Shown piece after piece: positions 1 to 10,773 of a stretch of 52,139 nt of DNA. The first letter of the stretch is position 1. Every line of letters starts with the position of its first letter. The position numbers and the translations under genes were made by a program. This stretch comes from Bacteroidales bacterium. Its GTDB lineage: Bacteria > Bacteroidota > Bacteroidia > Bacteroidales > JAADGE01. Location: NCBI GenBank assembly GCA_021108035.1, contig JAIORQ010000046.1, forward strand, positions 1 to 52,139, in the 5' to 3' direction. The notes under the pieces are model-generated. The model had not been told where the DNA came from and made no database searches. It saw nothing but the letters and a program-made list of their open reading frames with translations.

Positions 1-31
1 GTAAAAAAGATATACTTCCAAATAATTTGTA

Positions 32-112
32 AGCAATTGTTGAGAGAATGCAGTTGGACTATGCCTACACTTACACCTTTATTATATGGGTATTGTATTA
101 AAATTTTTATAT
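32..112. repeat. Direct repeat, left copy, flanking restriction-modification module
   Basis: This 81-bp stretch is repeated in the same orientation at 2329-2406, where it is 3 bp shorter and has a handful of substitutions. The shared core includes gagaatgcagttggactatg. The two copies enclose exactly the endonuclease and methyltransferase genes plus their upstream region. No open gene is convincing in it, although both copies stay open in the same frame and the length difference is 3 bp. It could be an integration footprint, a recombination site or a short interspersed repeat. Confidence 0.8.
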
Positions 113-118
113 ACATTG

Positions 119-841
119 TTACAAGTCGGCGATTCTTGTCAATCTCTCAATTTCACTCTTTATTTCTTCAATAATTTCTTTGTTTTTAATGACTTTTTTA
201 TCTCCTGTTCGAGTTGAGAAAATAACAAAAACTTTTCCGCCATACTTTTCTTCAAAATCTTGAAAACTTGCACTCATTCTTTCTGTTATTTTGTAATTGC
301 CGAAGTTCGCATTTGCTGTAATTGGTTTTATTTGGATACCAAAAGCTTTTTCTCCGACTTTACCAAGATAATCAATATCTCCGGCGTGGTCTAATTCCGG
401 GTCACTCTCTTCGAATTCGATTTCCGGAAATAATTTAGTAAGACCATCATTAATAACAGATTTTTCAAGTAAAAAACCATCATAAGTTCGGACAATGGTA
501 ACTTCATAAATGTAATCTTTACAATTTTGCAGTGTTAAAGCTTCAAATGCTTCTGTCCATTCAGGGATTACAACTTCGGTTATCTTTGCATACAATCTTT
601 CACCAAGTTCGTTTAATGTTTCTTTGGTTATTTTAACACTTTCTTTTTTCTTGGTATATGCTTTTTTAAAGTAGAATTTTTCCCATTCAGATAGTGCTTT
701 TGGTTGACATTCTCTTATTAATGCCATAACTGCATCAACTTTATTTGGTCTTGTAAGTTGATAAGTGTTGCTTGTATAGTTTAATACTTTTTCCTTTTTT
801 CCAAAAGGTTTTGCATGTTTTTTGAATTCTTTCTTTGACAT
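119..841 (-). CDS. MjaI-like type II restriction endonuclease
   Basis: A 240-residue protein that I assign to the MjaI restriction endonuclease family (the founding member cuts CTAG) from its N-terminal signature YQLTRPNKVDAVMALIREC (residues about 27-45) and its place behind a DNA methyltransferase. The centre has an acidic segment followed by a strand ending in GIQIKP (about 170-175), which fits a PD-(D/E)XK nuclease core. The start ATG shares bases with the methyltransferase stop (TAATG on the minus strand), so translation is probably coupled and the nuclease is made after the protecting enzyme. No controller (C) protein is seen. The family call rests on remembered motifs; the nuclease role is supported independently by context. 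Confidence 0.68.
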   Translation of the reverse strand: MSKKEFKKHAKPFGKKEKVLNYTSNTYQLTRPNKVDAVMALIRECQPKALSEWEKFYFKKAYTKKKESVKITKETLNELGERLYAKITEVVIPEWTEAFEALTLQNCKDYIYEVTIVRTYDGFLLEKSVINDGLTKLFPEIEFEESDPELDHAGDIDYLGKVGEKAFGIQIKPITANANFGNYKITERMSASFQDFEEKYGGKVFVIFSTRTGDKKVIKNKEIIEEIKSEIERLTRIADL

Positions 842-2142
842 TATACAATTTCTTTGTTTAAATAATTAATAAACCTTTCTTTATTCTTGTAATTAAATGT
901 CAAATCAACATCTGCAAATCCATTTTTTATCAGGTGAGCGTTTAGGAACGTTTTATTTTTTAAATACAGGTAAACCATTAAATGATTATTATCATCGTGT
1001 TTAATTTCATCATATTTCATAAAAACTTTCTGTCCTTTTGTTTTAAGTTGTAAAAATTCTATTGCTTTCCCGTTAGCATCTTTTTTTTCTTTAACTCCGA
1101 TAAGTTTAATTATTAAGTCGTTGTTTAGCTTAATTAATTCAGGGCTGATGATTTCTTTAACTGAATAATATTCTTCTCTTTGCGTTGAGCCGTTTTGGTC
1201 AATTTTAGAACCAAATTGTAGTTTTTTAGGGTCAATTTTTTTGTCGAATTTTTGAAAGTCTTTAAATATATACGGCAATTTCTCAATTTCATTTTTGTAA
1301 TCTGTAATTACGTTGTTTTGAGAAATAAATTCATAATTTGAATTAAAAATATCGCTTTGATTTATTTCCAGTTTTCTTTTGATAAAAGGAATAAATTCAG
1401 GATTCATTTCATAACCGACAGAATTCCTGTTTAGTTTTTTTGCTGAAAGTGAAGTTGTTCCGCTTCCAAGAAAAGGGTCAAGAACAATATCTCCAACAAA
1501 AGAAAACATTTTAATAAGCCTTTTTGGTAACTCTTCCGGGAACATCGCAATATGTCCGTCTTGTTTTGCTCCTCCAAAATTCCAATGACCCGCAAAATAA
1601 GTTTTCCATTCTTCTTTGGTCATTTTTGATTGCTCTTTAATTTCTTTATTTGGTTTTATCGGTGTTCCTAACTTTTTGAATAATAAGATAAATTCATAGT
1701 CAATAGATAAAATACCGTTTCTCGGAGTTGGGTAGCTTCCCATTAATGAAGCTCCGCCGGTAGTGTTTGATGTTGTCTTTTTTTGCCAAATTATTGCTCC
1801 CATATAATCAAATCCGACAGCTTCACAAAATTTTATTATTTCAGTTCGTATCGGAATAACTTTATATCTGCCATAATAAACTGCTCTTGCAAATTGGTCT
1901 CCTATATTAACACACAAACGGCATCCGTTATTAAGAACTCTGTAACTTTCTTTCCAAACAAGATTTAAGTTGTTAATATATTCTTCATAACTGTCATTAT
2001 ATCCAATTTGGTTTTTCGTTCCGTAATCTTTTAATTGCCAATATGGCGGTGAAGTTATTACTAAATCAACTGATTTATCTTCAAGTTCAATCATTTGCCG
2101 ACTGTCACCATTTATAATTTTATGTTGCGTTTTAAAGCTCAT
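841..2142 (-). CDS. Beta-class DNA methyltransferase with SNase-like C-terminal domain
   Basis: A 433-residue site-specific DNA methyltransferase. Motif IV is TSPPYW (residues 30-35), the form typical of N4-cytosine enzymes, and the AdoMet motif DPFLGSGTT lies about 190 residues later, so the order is that of the beta class. The catalytic part ends near residue 260. A tail at about 340-425 reads like a staphylococcal-nuclease (OB-fold) domain: a beta-rich segment, then HLMVYLYLKNKTFLNAHLI and KNGFADV, which correspond to the family's LAYVYL...VN..LV..GLA pattern. The arginine normally found before that strand is absent, so this domain is probably not a nuclease and may bind DNA. An upstream in-frame TTG at 2166 is rejected because it lies inside the -7 promoter element; ATG at 2142 is preferred. 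It is the first gene of the operon with the endonuclease. Confidence 0.9.
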   Translation of the reverse strand: MSFKTQHKIINGDSRQMIELEDKSVDLVITSPPYWQLKDYGTKNQIGYNDSYEEYINNLNLVWKESYRVLNNGCRLCVNIGDQFARAVYYGRYKVIPIRTEIIKFCEAVGFDYMGAIIWQKKTTSNTTGGASLMGSYPTPRNGILSIDYEFILLFKKLGTPIKPNKEIKEQSKMTKEEWKTYFAGHWNFGGAKQDGHIAMFPEELPKRLIKMFSFVGDIVLDPFLGSGTTSLSAKKLNRNSVGYEMNPEFIPFIKRKLEINQSDIFNSNYEFISQNNVITDYKNEIEKLPYIFKDFQKFDKKIDPKKLQFGSKIDQNGSTQREEYYSVKEIISPELIKLNNDLIIKLIGVKEKKDANGKAIEFLQLKTKGQKVFMKYDEIKHDDNNHLMVYLYLKNKTFLNAHLIKNGFADVDLTFNYKNKERFINYLNKEIV

Positions 2143-2163
2143 TTTATTTTCTTTAAATAAAAG

Positions 2164-2171
2164 CAAAGATA
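2164..2171 (-). promoter_or_regulatory. Promoter -7 element of methyltransferase operon
   Basis: On the minus strand this reads TATCTTTG, matching the Bacteroidota -7 consensus TAnnTTTG, 21 bases before the ATG at 2142. It implies transcription starting near 2157 and rules out the upstream TTG as start. Confidence 0.6.
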
Positions 2172-2222
2172 ACCATTAAATATTTTGCTGTGAAATTTGT
2201 TTTTGGATACTTCTTTCAGCTT

Positions 2223-2270
2223 GCTTATAACATATAAGCATTCTATTGACAGTTGCGACATGCAGAATGC
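2223..2270. repeat. Overlapping inverted repeats upstream of methyltransferase promoter
   Basis: Two perfect 7-bp inverted repeats share bases: GCTTATA at 2223-2229 with TATAAGC at 2233-2239 (3-base loop), and GCATTCT at 2238-2244 with AGAATGC at 2264-2270. They lie 50-110 bases upstream of the promoter in a 325-bp gap that otherwise contains only the right-hand direct repeat and a terminator. They could be operator sites, alternative hairpins, or part of the insertion boundary. Confidence 0.5.
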
Positions 2271-2328
2271 GAGCATCCAAAATTAACAAAAAATATTATA
2301 AAAAGAGATGCTTTGTAAATAACTCTCA

Positions 2329-2406
2329 AGCAATTGTTTAGAGAATGCAGTTGGACTATGTCTACACTTATCTTATTATATGGGTATTGTATTAAAGTTT
2401 TTATAT
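2329..2406. repeat. Direct repeat, right copy, flanking restriction-modification module
   Basis: Second copy of the 32-112 repeat, same orientation, about 90% identical and 3 bp shorter near 2371. It ends just before the terminator of the neighbouring thioredoxin gene, so the boundary between module and host sequence probably lies here. Confidence 0.8.
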
Positions 2407-2411
2407 ATTTA

Positions 2412-2440
2412 TAAAAAAAAGTTGCCTTAAAAAGACAACT
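2412..2440 (-). terminator. Rho-independent terminator of exported thioredoxin
   Basis: On the minus strand the RNA forms AGUUGUCUU / AAGGCAACU with a 3-base loop (one G-U pair), followed by a run of eight U. It lies just after the stop at 2468. Confidence 0.8.
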
Positions 2441-2467: not shown

Positions 2468-2890
2468 TTATTTTTCAACTTTCAATATACTTTTTACTAA
2501 TTCTTCAAGTTGTTGCTTGTTCCTGTAACTTGCAATTTTTTTATAATTACCGTCTGCAGGTATAAATAACAAAGTCGGAATACTTCTTATCTTAAATAAA
2601 TTTGCTAAAGTCGGATTTTCATCTCTGTTTATTCTATAGATTTGAAGTTTATTCCCGTATTCACTTTGAATAGCTTTTAAATGAGGTGCAATCATTTTAC
2701 AAGGTTGACACCAATCTGCATAAAAGTCAATAATCATAGGTTTATTACCTTTAAATTTCCATTGCGAATTCGTATCATAGTTCCAAACATTTGCTTTAAA
2801 ACTTGCTTCATTCAAAAATGTAACTTTCTGTGAAAAACAGTATAAAGACCCGAATATGAATAATCCCGTAATAATGAATATCCTTTTCAT
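2468..2890 (-). CDS. Exported thioredoxin-like protein
   Basis: A 140-residue thioredoxin with an N-terminal signal peptide (residues about 1-20, ending near CFSQK), so it acts in the periplasm or at the envelope. The redox site is WCQPCK, with the FYADWC strand before it and the cis-proline loop RSIPTLLF about 40 residues later. It probably reduces or exchanges disulfides of exported proteins. It is followed at a distance of about 200 bp by a cytoplasmic paralogue with the same WCQPCK site and the same unusual N-terminal extension (FLNE...WKF), so the pair looks like an old tandem duplication in which one copy gained a signal peptide. It has its own terminator. No upstream promoter of the standard form was found. 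Confidence 0.88.
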   Translation of the reverse strand: MKRIFIITGLFIFGSLYCFSQKVTFLNEASFKANVWNYDTNSQWKFKGNKPMIIDFYADWCQPCKMIAPHLKAIQSEYGNKLQIYRINRDENPTLANLFKIRSIPTLLFIPADGNYKKIASYRNKQQLEELVKSILKVEK

Positions 2891-2989
2891 TTGTCTGATT
2901 TTAAGGTTGTTATTAATTAATTTAAGCTGTTCAATTTGATACTGTATTAATAGTATAACGATAATTATACCAAAATGTTTCTTTTAAAT

Positions 2990-3017
2990 AAAAGCCGGCA
3001 AATAACATCGGCTTTTT
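2990..3017 (-). terminator. Terminator of cytoplasmic thioredoxin
   Basis: AAAAGCCG and CGGCTTTT flank an 11-base loop; read on the minus strand the stem is followed by UUUUAUUU. It lies 70-100 bases after the thioredoxin stop at 3089. Confidence 0.7.
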
Positions 3018-3088
3018 ATTAACAAGTAATGTTAGCTTGTCTTAAAGAACGATTCAGAAATAAGTTATAAGTCCTTACTTGTTCGTTC

Positions 3089-3460
3089 CTAATCAGGTTT
3101 TTCAACACCAAGTACATCAGTAATAGCTTTTTCAAAAGATTCTTTCGGCAATGCACCGACAGACATTTGCGGTTGCCCTTCTTTGGGTACGAATAACAAA
3201 GAAGGAATACTTTGAATACCGAACATTCCGGCGAGATTTCTTTCAATTTCTGTATCTATTTTATAGATGTTTATTGAATCACCATATTCTTCTTTAAGTT
3301 CATCTAAAATAGGAGCAACCATTTTACAAGGTTGACACCAGTCAGCATAGAAATCAATCATACAAGGAACATCTCCTTCAAATTTCCAATCTTTATTTTT
3401 CTCATAATTAAAAACTTTTTCTTTAAAAGTTTTTTCGTTTAAAAATTCTACTTTTGTCAT
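3089..3460 (-). CDS. Cytoplasmic thioredoxin
   Basis: A 123-residue thioredoxin with no signal peptide. The active site WCQPCK follows the strand MIDFYAD, and the cis-proline loop is QSIPSLLF. It keeps the N-terminal extension FLNEKTF...WKFEGDVP seen in its exported paralogue downstream. It acts as a general cytoplasmic disulfide reductase, recycled by thioredoxin reductase, which is not in this window. It has its own hairpin terminator, so it is transcribed separately from the exported copy. The name trxA is plausible but not certain, since the genome may hold other thioredoxins. Confidence 0.9.
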   Translation of the reverse strand: MTKVEFLNEKTFKEKVFNYEKNKDWKFEGDVPCMIDFYADWCQPCKMVAPILDELKEEYGDSINIYKIDTEIERNLAGMFGIQSIPSLLFVPKEGQPQMSVGALPKESFEKAITDVLGVEKPD

Positions 3461-6170: not shown

Positions 6171-6467
6171 ATGAACCAAAATATTATAAATAAAATTTCA
6201 AATTATTTCAATACAAAACCAATTGAAAAAGCATGGATTTTTGGTTCGTATTCAAGAAATGAAGAATCTGACAAAAGCGATATTGATATACTTGTTAAGT
6301 TTTCTCCTAACAACAAAATTACATTATTTTATTATTTGCAATTAAAATATGAATTAGAAAAACTAACAGGAAAATCTATTGATTTTGTAGAAGAAGGACA
6401 ACTTGAAAAATTTGCACTTGAAAGTTTTAACAAGGACAAAGTACTGATTTATGAGAGAACAAATTAG
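6171..6467 (+). CDS. mntA: MntA-like nucleotidyltransferase antitoxin
   Basis: A 98-residue minimal nucleotidyltransferase. The catalytic signature GSX10DXD is perfect (G25-S26 ... D37-I38-D39), with a third acidic residue expected in the strand SIDFVEEG. In type VII toxin-antitoxin systems this protein adds AMP groups to the partner HEPN RNase near its active site and so silences it. It overlaps the HEPN gene by 17 bases, in the usual antitoxin-first order for this arrangement, and both share one promoter. A free-standing regulatory nucleotidyltransferase is the alternative, but the neighbour makes that unlikely. Confidence 0.88.
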   Translation: MNQNIINKISNYFNTKPIEKAWIFGSYSRNEESDKSDIDILVKFSPNNKITLFYYLQLKYELEKLTGKSIDFVEEGQLEKFALESFNKDKVLIYERTN

Positions 6468-6795
6468 AGATAAAGAGCGTTTAAATCATATTATTGAATC
6501 TATTGATAATATCTTTGAATTTACTGAAAATCTTAAATTTACGGATTTTGAAAACAATAAAATGTTAAAATTTGCAGTAATCAAAAATCTTGAGATTATC
6601 GGTGAAGCATCAAATTTATTAACAAAAGAGTTAAAAGAAAAGCACAATAAAATTCAGTGGCATTTAATTATAGGATTAAGGAATGTTTTAGTTCATGGTT
6701 ATTACCAAATAAGCAATTCAATTATTTGGAATACAATAACAGATGATTTATTATCTTTTAAAACAAAAATTGAAAATATAAAAAATAATATTTAA
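6451..6795 (+). CDS. hepT: HepT-like HEPN RNase toxin (DUF86)
   Basis: A 114-residue, mostly helical HEPN protein. The RNase motif RX4HXY is intact at R77-H82-Y84 (RNVLVHGYY). Family members cut RNA, including tRNA, and are blocked by AMPylation of the tyrosine in this motif by the partner nucleotidyltransferase encoded just upstream with a 17-base overlap. Both active sites are complete, so the pair looks functional. Role by family: stress-induced growth arrest or phage defence. Confidence 0.88.
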   Translation: MREQIRDKERLNHIIESIDNIFEFTENLKFTDFENNKMLKFAVIKNLEIIGEASNLLTKELKEKHNKIQWHLIIGLRNVLVHGYYQISNSIIWNTITDDLLSFKTKIENIKNNI

Positions 6796-10249: not shown

Positions 10250-10489
10250 ATGCAACGATATATTATTGAAATTCCGGAAAATAATCCTGAATCAAAAGTC
10301 CTGTTAAATTACTTAATGAGTACAAAATTAATTGAAATATCTCAACCCATTAAGACAGAACAAGATTTGTTAAAAGAATTTTATAATAAGAAATTAGAAA
10401 TGTCAGAACAGGCACTTGCAAACGGCGAAGTTGTTGAACATAATGAATTAAAAAAAGAAGTTGAGCAATGGAAAAGCCAAAGAAATTAA
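10250..10489 (+). CDS. Antitoxin of RelE/ParE-type pair
   Basis: A 79-residue acidic protein with a short N-terminal beta region and a long C-terminal helix (NKKLEMSEQALANGEVVEHNELKKEVEQW), the usual shape of an antitoxin whose tail wraps the toxin. It overlaps the toxin gene by 22 bases and has its own promoter. There is no recognisable DNA-binding domain at the N-terminus, so autoregulation is uncertain. Its last 110 bases are duplicated upstream in the 9876-10081 relic. Confidence 0.78.
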   Translation: MQRYIIEIPENNPESKVLLNYLMSTKLIEISQPIKTEQDLLKEFYNKKLEMSEQALANGEVVEHNELKKEVEQWKSQRN

Positions 10490-10773
10490 TTTGGACAGAA
10501 CCGGCAAGACAAGATTTAAAAGATATTTTTGTTTTCCAATCTGAATTTTCTCACAAAAGTGCTGACAAAATAATTAATAAAATATTTGAAAAAGTAGAAA
10601 TACTTTTAATATTGGGGTTTGAGTTATCCGGACAAATCGACAATATTAATCCAAAATACAGGCGGCTGATTGAGGGGAATTATAAAATATTATACAAAGT
10701 TTATCCTGATAAAATTGTTATACACGGCATTTTTGATGCACGACAACAGCCCGCTAAATTAAAATTAAAATAG
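10468..10773 (+). CDS. RelE/ParE-superfamily toxin
   Basis: A 101-residue protein with the typical core: WTEPARQDLKDIFVFQSEFS at the start, a central RRLIEGNYKILYKVYPDKIVIHGIFDARQ strand region, and a C-terminal Q-P-A-K tail. ParE members poison gyrase while RelE members cut mRNA on the ribosome; the sequence (hydrophobic, with FDARQQP) is nearer ParE/YoeB-like plasmid-stabilisation proteins, but I cannot decide the target. The antitoxin overlaps it, so translation is coupled. It looks intact, unlike the partial copy upstream. Confidence 0.82.
   Translation: MEKPKKLIWTEPARQDLKDIFVFQSEFSHKSADKIINKIFEKVEILLILGFELSGQIDNINPKYRRLIEGNYKILYKVYPDKIVIHGIFDARQQPAKLKLK

Follow-up and report, generated by a model that had tools for sequence, protein, structure and literature searches.

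Attachment-site-like hairpin repeats around a restriction-modification gene pair in a Bacteroidales genome, probably part of an integron-like system

The restriction-modification locus and its repeats

The window analysed here, meaning the whole stretch of 52,139 nucleotides, is the entire contig JAIORQ010000046.1 (C46) of the Bacteroidales genome GCA_021108035.1 (G000), and the two share their first base. Near its left end, the two genes of a restriction-modification (R-M) system lie between two direct repeats, as an earlier note on this DNA had stated. The repeats were recovered where that note had placed them, and both genes are on the minus strand (Table 1). The repeats are probably attC-like sites of an integron-like system, and the R-M pair, flanked by two such sites, would be a cassette-like unit of two genes; that the R-M pair is a cassette is probable rather than proven.

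Comparison within the window placed the direct repeats at positions 20-73 and 2317-2370 (89% identity) and at 79-113 and 2373-2407 (97%). The 21-base core AGAGAATGCAGTTGGACTATG, searched with up to 3 mismatches permitted, occurred twice in the window, exactly in both cases, as against 0 occurrences in 100 shuffles. The earlier note had misjudged how far the repeats extend, as the similarity in copy 2 spans from the AAC at 2229-2231 to about 2420, while copy 1 is cut at base 1 and is thus incomplete, since the contig begins inside the repeat. On the minus strand the repeats take the form of a hairpin, here called attC_A, which extends from GTCCAAC to GTT. No Rfam family matched the window at the gathering score, and a known structured RNA family was rejected as the identity of the repeat on that ground. 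Neither attI motifs nor canonical attC motifs were more frequent in the window than in shuffles.

Table 1. Features of the repeat-flanked region of the window (aa, amino acids)
Feature	Position	Strand	Remarks
Copy 1, attC_A hairpin site, R''-L'' side only	1..59	-	GTCCAAC at 59-53; L'' arm at 51-33; remainder past the contig start
Non-coding part of the ~265-base cassette, 5'-truncated (minus-strand sense)	60..113	-	Adjoins the R-M genes at their 3' side
Type II restriction endonuclease, MjaI family, 240 aa	119..841	-	PF09568 (RE_MjaI) E 3.5e-25, 89.2 bits (cut-off 22.7); PADLOC REase_II 4e-85
N6_N4 DNA methyltransferase with C-terminal SNase-like domain, 433 aa	841..2142	-	PF01555 E 1.3e-43; PF00565 E 7.6e-6; PADLOC MTase_II 7.9e-185
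R-M unit leader	2143..2231	-	Homology to the G013 R-M begins at GTT (2231-2229)
Copy 2, attC_A hairpin site	2229..2356	-	GTCCAAC at 2356-2350; arms at 2348-2330 and 2256-2238; GTT at 2231-2229
Non-coding part of the ~265-base cassette	2357..2420	-	5'-truncated at the T-run of the terminator-like hairpin (2421-2440) of the thioredoxin gene

The RE_MjaI domain and the adjacent methylase make this an MjaI-type type II R-M system, and the pair itself is ordinary; the SNase-like domain is, to our knowledge, unusual on a type II methylase. Over the window (1-52139), CTAG was observed 4 times, where shorter words predict 22.6, and GTAC was also low (43 vs 85.3 expected). The CTAG deficit would fit an MjaI-like enzyme with CTAG specificity, but CTAG is rare in many bacteria.

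Anatomy and dispersal of the attC_A sites

Full copies of type I measure 264-268 bases up to the GTT (n=3 measured; a variant on C42 has 346), and on the minus strand they consist of GTTGAACTA, a non-coding stretch, TAGTCCAAC, a 19-base arm, a loop of ~65-70 bases, the second arm, 6 bases and GTT, beyond which the sequence is foreign. The boundary at the GTT/AAC end was readable in 21 of 22 copies, and 19 of these 21 carried AAC. A wider survey took in 25 sites, 21 from G000 and 4 from the relative G013, one site being common to both genomes. GTT stood at the expected position in 21 of the 25, with a purine next in 20 of these 21, and the open reading frame (ORF) after the site was co-directional with it in 24 of 25 cases, as was the nearest upstream ORF in 13 of the 16 sites having one.

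Over 16 aligned sites, the R'' box was GTCCAAC or GTTCAAC in 12, and stem pairing reached 276/304 on the window + strand vs 246/304 on the other strand, an excess which is the bottom-strand bias expected of attC. The support for the stem comes from conservation with G-T changes and not from clean covariation. The full RRRY at R' is looser than the GTT, and GTTATAA, the R' found in the window, departs from GTTRRRY. Of 9 bases at the start of the type I cassette, 8 pair with the R'' of that cassette, and the longer unit, folded with RNA parameters, fell below shuffles (z -3.58). On one strand the unit ends read AAC...AAC, and the 4 units for which both ends could be placed showed no flanking target duplication. 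One attC_A copy lies at the same position in G013:C507 (L065) and in G000:C58 (L030), with GTGATAGCC or ATGATAGCC in place of the expected GTT; it is an old copy, shared by the two genomes and perhaps inactive.

The repeat is widely dispersed in the genome, where an 86-base repeat query gave 15 matches and a 401-base query, covering the entire unit and some flank, gave 38 BLAST places at E <= 0.01. In the G000 assembly, 13 contig ends fall inside the repeat, and 5 further ends fall in a longer version of it. This longer cassette contains an ORF starting MDTVTYLKRFERDMRI close behind an attI or attC (L041 1-140; contig ends of C115, C102, C59, C29 and C96), of which 16 codons are visible at five contig ends while the body is unjoined in the assembly; as a first guess, an insertion sequence may lie behind these collapsed longer copies.

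In 14 distinct left contexts, the full ~265-base cassettes begin exactly at GTT, with GTTGAACTA, and all break at the same base; as the cassettes were chosen by their common first 16 bases, the finding is the breakpoint itself and not its existence. Nine of the 14 contexts have an attI-like end directly before the break (ACAAAT, ACAGAT or ACAAGT), two have the end of a canonical attC upstream (C25, C96), two have an upstream hairpin that is attC-like by eye (C89, C42), and the last is plain sequence with nothing recognisable (C56).

Recombinase, attI-like sites and gene units

Contig C90 of the same genome encodes a 368-aa tyrosine recombinase with the domains PF13495 and PF00589. In G013, the stop of its orthologue is followed by a putative attI, then by a gene unit starting GTTGGGCATC, and then by a canonical attC composed of R'' GATGCCCAAC, a 5-base spacer, GCTAAAAAATCATGC ... 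GCACGCTTTTTAGC, a second 5-base spacer and GTTGGGT. Sequences ending in ...ACAAATGTT or ...ACAGATGTT occur within ~130 bases of the recombinase stop in G000, G003, G004, G012, G013 and G018, and by this likeness the recombinase is adjoined by a putative attI. Scanning covered 25 recombinase loci, 13 of them with at least 700 bases downstream, and a GTTR/AAC reverse-complement pair was found in 4 of these 13 (G013, G022, G044, G046); hits at four other loci were discounted as low-complexity or as having no AAC, and the control gave 6 chance matches in 4 loci.

A half-site pattern derived from the canonical attC sites of G000 and G013 gave 18 matches on 12 G000 contigs and 0 in the backward control. 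Among 21 genomes of the family, matches were found in 5 of the 12 with the recombinase (at E <= 1e-40) vs 0 of the 9 in which it is absent, with one backward-control match, in G019. Twelve attI-like motifs were counted, 2 of them in G012 and G013 and the other ten on ten G000 contigs, within a set of loci of which many had been chosen because they contain the repeat. In the loci examined, C115 and C102 have only the 3' end of a recombinase gene. Viral contigs gave 0 matches, the attI-plus-ORF end was unmatched among plasmids, and an exact-pattern scan of the genome-contig collection matched a single contig.

Genes other than the R-M pair also stand at such sites. The site on C79 holds 1295 bases with attC_A and an AbiTii gene (PF18864) vs 126 bases in G013, between flanks that are 96% and 94% identical and with the right junction reading GTTATG in both genomes. 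At its start, the AbiTii unit agrees with the complement of its own R'' at 9 of 12 positions, and this unit is a cleaner case than the R-M pair. An attI-like site on C16 is common to G013, with different contents behind it in the two genomes; C49 has another gene between two attC_A sites, and C42 has the gene for a Mrr-type restriction enzyme behind its site. Five other neighbour genes were scanned, and defence cargo as a general rule is unsupported, since 3 of these 5 had no Pfam match.

The closest methylase among 60 related genomes is that of G013 (92% identical). Compared ungapped with the window, the leader of the G013 R-M is identical at 45 of 62 bases after the GTT vs 21 of 62 before it, and on the 3' side the homology extends a few bases beyond the endonuclease stop. 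In G013 an extra small gene separates methylase and endonuclease, and the R-M is followed by an ABC-transporter gene, msbA-like by eye. The msbA locus in G000 (C30, 95%) has no R-M, and thus the R-M stands at two different loci in the two related genomes. In a search with the G013 flanks, the msbA locus was recovered (95%), but it is preceded by other genes and the exact empty R-M junction was not seen. The endonuclease is followed by attC_A in the window and not in G013, and the repeat was absent from eight loci of R-M relatives (G013 and seven others). By eye, an R-M homologue in G036:C564 (L088) lies between two oppositely oriented copies of another repeat (around GGTCTTCGACCTATTTATAGTTGCTTAC).

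Beyond copy 2 in the window, two tandem thioredoxin genes (2468-3460) precede metG, and many family genomes likewise have two thioredoxin matches no more than about 0.7 kb apart. The earlier note had advised comparing related genomes for an empty site, and no true empty copy came to light. R-M and repeat were both absent from 12 thioredoxin loci of the same genus (in 11 genomes, each locus with 1500 bases of 3' flank) and from the remaining 8 of the 20 loci, one of which had 4 bases of flank only. The genes past thioredoxin vary among these loci, which are therefore not proper empty sites, and the thioredoxin gene of the window was unmatched in the closest relative, G013. Further into the window, two small gene pairs are toxin-antitoxin-like by eye, at 6171-6795 and 10250-10773 (nucleotidyltransferase/HEPN-like; RelE-like); the attI and canonical attC motifs tried were found beside neither pair.

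Alternative readings, proposed mechanism and known systems

Several results weigh against reading the repeats as attC-like sites around a cassette. At the level of the sites, 4 of the 25 have no GTT, a single copy folded as DNA was no stabler than shuffles (z -1.04), and the spacers of the usual attC_A form are lopsided (1 base on the R'' side vs 6 on the R' side), unlike those of a canonical attC. At the level of the R-M unit, the contig end cuts copy 1, copies 1 and 2 are both 5'-truncated, for which a simple cassette insertion gives no explanation, and the unit start (GTTATAAGC) matches the complement of the copy 1 R'' at 4 of 12 positions, short of the expected R'/R'' complementarity. The G013 R-M locus has no attC_A, and no attC is visible in the 450 bases past its endonuclease stop. 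Among the other units, the box match on C49 is poor (6 of 12), and some neighbours are core-like by eye (uvrA-like on C50, leuC-like in G013), because of which part of the sites may represent isolated insertions or fossil copies. Finally, the recombinase has no IntI-specific insertion, its alignment to IntI4 (2a3v) splitting in two with chain residues 207-243 unmatched, and it scores 199 bits against the integron-integrase model TIGR02249 (cut-off 265). Four of its relatives likewise scored 193-220 bits, all under that cut-off; against the XerA model (NF040815, cut-off 220) the recombinase reached 210 bits and the four relatives 200-225.5, one of them above the cut-off.

What these points must be set against are the sites themselves, their dispersal, the exact GTT junctions, an AbiTii unit present and absent at one of them, and an R-M at different loci with the same 5' boundary. 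On account of the unmatched R-M R'/R'' boxes, the lopsided spacers, the lack of a visible attC at the G013 R-M and a recombinase without the IntI-specific insertion, the system is filed as integron-like and not as an integron.

The most serious alternative, though in our judgement an unlikely one, accepts the sites as real integron-type sites or remnants of them and has the R-M pair arrive by another route, through homologous recombination between dispersed repeats or by illegitimate insertion, so that the pair would not be a mobile cassette. The missing R'/R'' match of the R-M unit, the truncation of both flanking copies and the lack of attC_A beside the R-M in G013 and at the loci of seven other relatives are all on its side, yet the two R-M units, at different loci, show homology that starts at the crossover GTT. 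That the ~265-base repeat is instead a non-autonomous transposon of the miniature inverted-repeat transposable element (MITE) kind, sitting in intergenic regions with the R-M merely between two copies, is improbable. Its high copy number, its short non-coding units, the inverted-repeat hairpin and the collapsed longer copies with an ORF start all speak for such an element. However, the terminal inverted repeat and target duplication looked for in a MITE were not found, duplication being absent at the 4 units for which both ends could be placed; in 13 of 14 contexts an attI-like or attC-like end precedes the unit, whose 5' end falls at one common base, the unit start pairs with its own R'', and the gene that follows has the same direction in 24 of 25 cases. 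A transposon with target duplication was rejected on the common 5' breakpoint and the lack of a duplicated flank at those 4 units.

The view of the earlier note, that the repeats are a duplication from the R-M module's own insertion, would account for their same orientation and close fit around both genes, but it is scarcely credible and was rejected, as copy 1 is identical to unlinked copies on C56, C89 and C29 at 111 of 113 positions and to copy 2 at only 97 of 114, from which it follows that the pair did not arise in a single insertion event, and the repeat stands at many loci where there is no R-M, a finding that the note itself had named as telling against it. Its other suggestion, a site for excision by recombination, survives in changed form: the sites resemble attC and the homology between the window and G013 R-M units starts at the crossover GTT, but the repeats are not the module's own mark.

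Under the attC-like reading, the minus-strand order would be the thioredoxin gene, its terminator, a truncated short cassette with copy 2, the crossover between G and TT, the leader, methylase and endonuclease, and a second truncated short cassette with copy 1. At GTT/AAC, the window + strand, folded as a single strand, would be cleaved by a tyrosine recombinase; the likeliest candidate is the C90 enzyme, whose orthologues lie immediately before attI. If attC_A is active as a recombination site, the R-M unit could leave as a circle and then enter other GTT sites. In one reading, the R-M unit may have gained its attC by fusion with a truncated cassette, and the thioredoxin gene seems likewise to have been fused to a truncated cassette at the terminator T-run.

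More tentatively, and with doubt somewhat outweighing belief, this lineage and its relatives in the order could be envisaged as carrying an unrecognised integron-like class. Its recombinase, devoid of the IntI insertion, would point into the array; in G000, attI itself would have spread to ten or more sites on the chromosome, where short cassettes, defence genes among them, accumulate; and the amplified non-coding ~265-base cassette would spread an unusual attC which it may hand to resident genes, making them mobile, with the R-M pair and the thioredoxin gene as snapshots of cassette birth. Integron recognition relies on an integrase domain that is missing from these recombinases, and if such a class exists, searches keyed to IntI overlook a working gene-capture family, some attC clusters without an integrase would be explained, and spread by cassette is added to the transposon or plasmid routes of R-M systems. 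The junctions between genes and attC at 5'-truncated cassettes bear on how genes acquire attC. In the titles, abstract beginnings and selected passages of the open-access literature, nothing was found on a class of integrons in this group whose integrase would lack the insertion.

Among known systems, the R-M pair is like other MjaI-family type II systems in having a PF09568 endonuclease beside an N6_N4 methylase, and unlike them in the C-terminal SNase-like domain of the methylase. With sedentary chromosomal integrons the system shares a recombinase beside attI, units running from a GTT cut after its G to a hairpin attC, co-directional genes and defence cargo; restriction, methylation and toxin-antitoxin genes are commonly reported cassette functions, according to a passage of PMC8618304. 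It differs from them in that attI lies at the 3' end of the recombinase gene with the units running in the same direction, in that ten attI-like motifs are found on ten contigs among the G000 loci examined, with short and scattered arrays, and in that the recombinase has no IntI-specific domain, an extra domain given as defining for integron integrases in a part of PMC9668308. The canonical attC of G013 has spacers of 5 and 5, in contrast to the 1 and 6 of attC_A.

Clusters of attC sites lacking integron-integrases (CALIN), for which off-target insertion is one origin proposed in a passage of PMC8618304, and insertions at attG, described second-hand in passages of PMC12901181 and PMC12444791, resemble the present case in having attC-type sites and cassettes away from an integrase; here, by contrast, most full cassettes (9 of 14) follow attI-like sites and not an arbitrary GTT. 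The recombinase itself shares PF13495 and PF00589 with the XerA-type enzymes (NF040815) and with the integron-like subgroup of simple tyrosine recombinases described in part of PMC8138268. The same part of that source calls the insertion essential for integron function, whereas the insertion-less enzymes found here adjoin attI-like sites and gene units.

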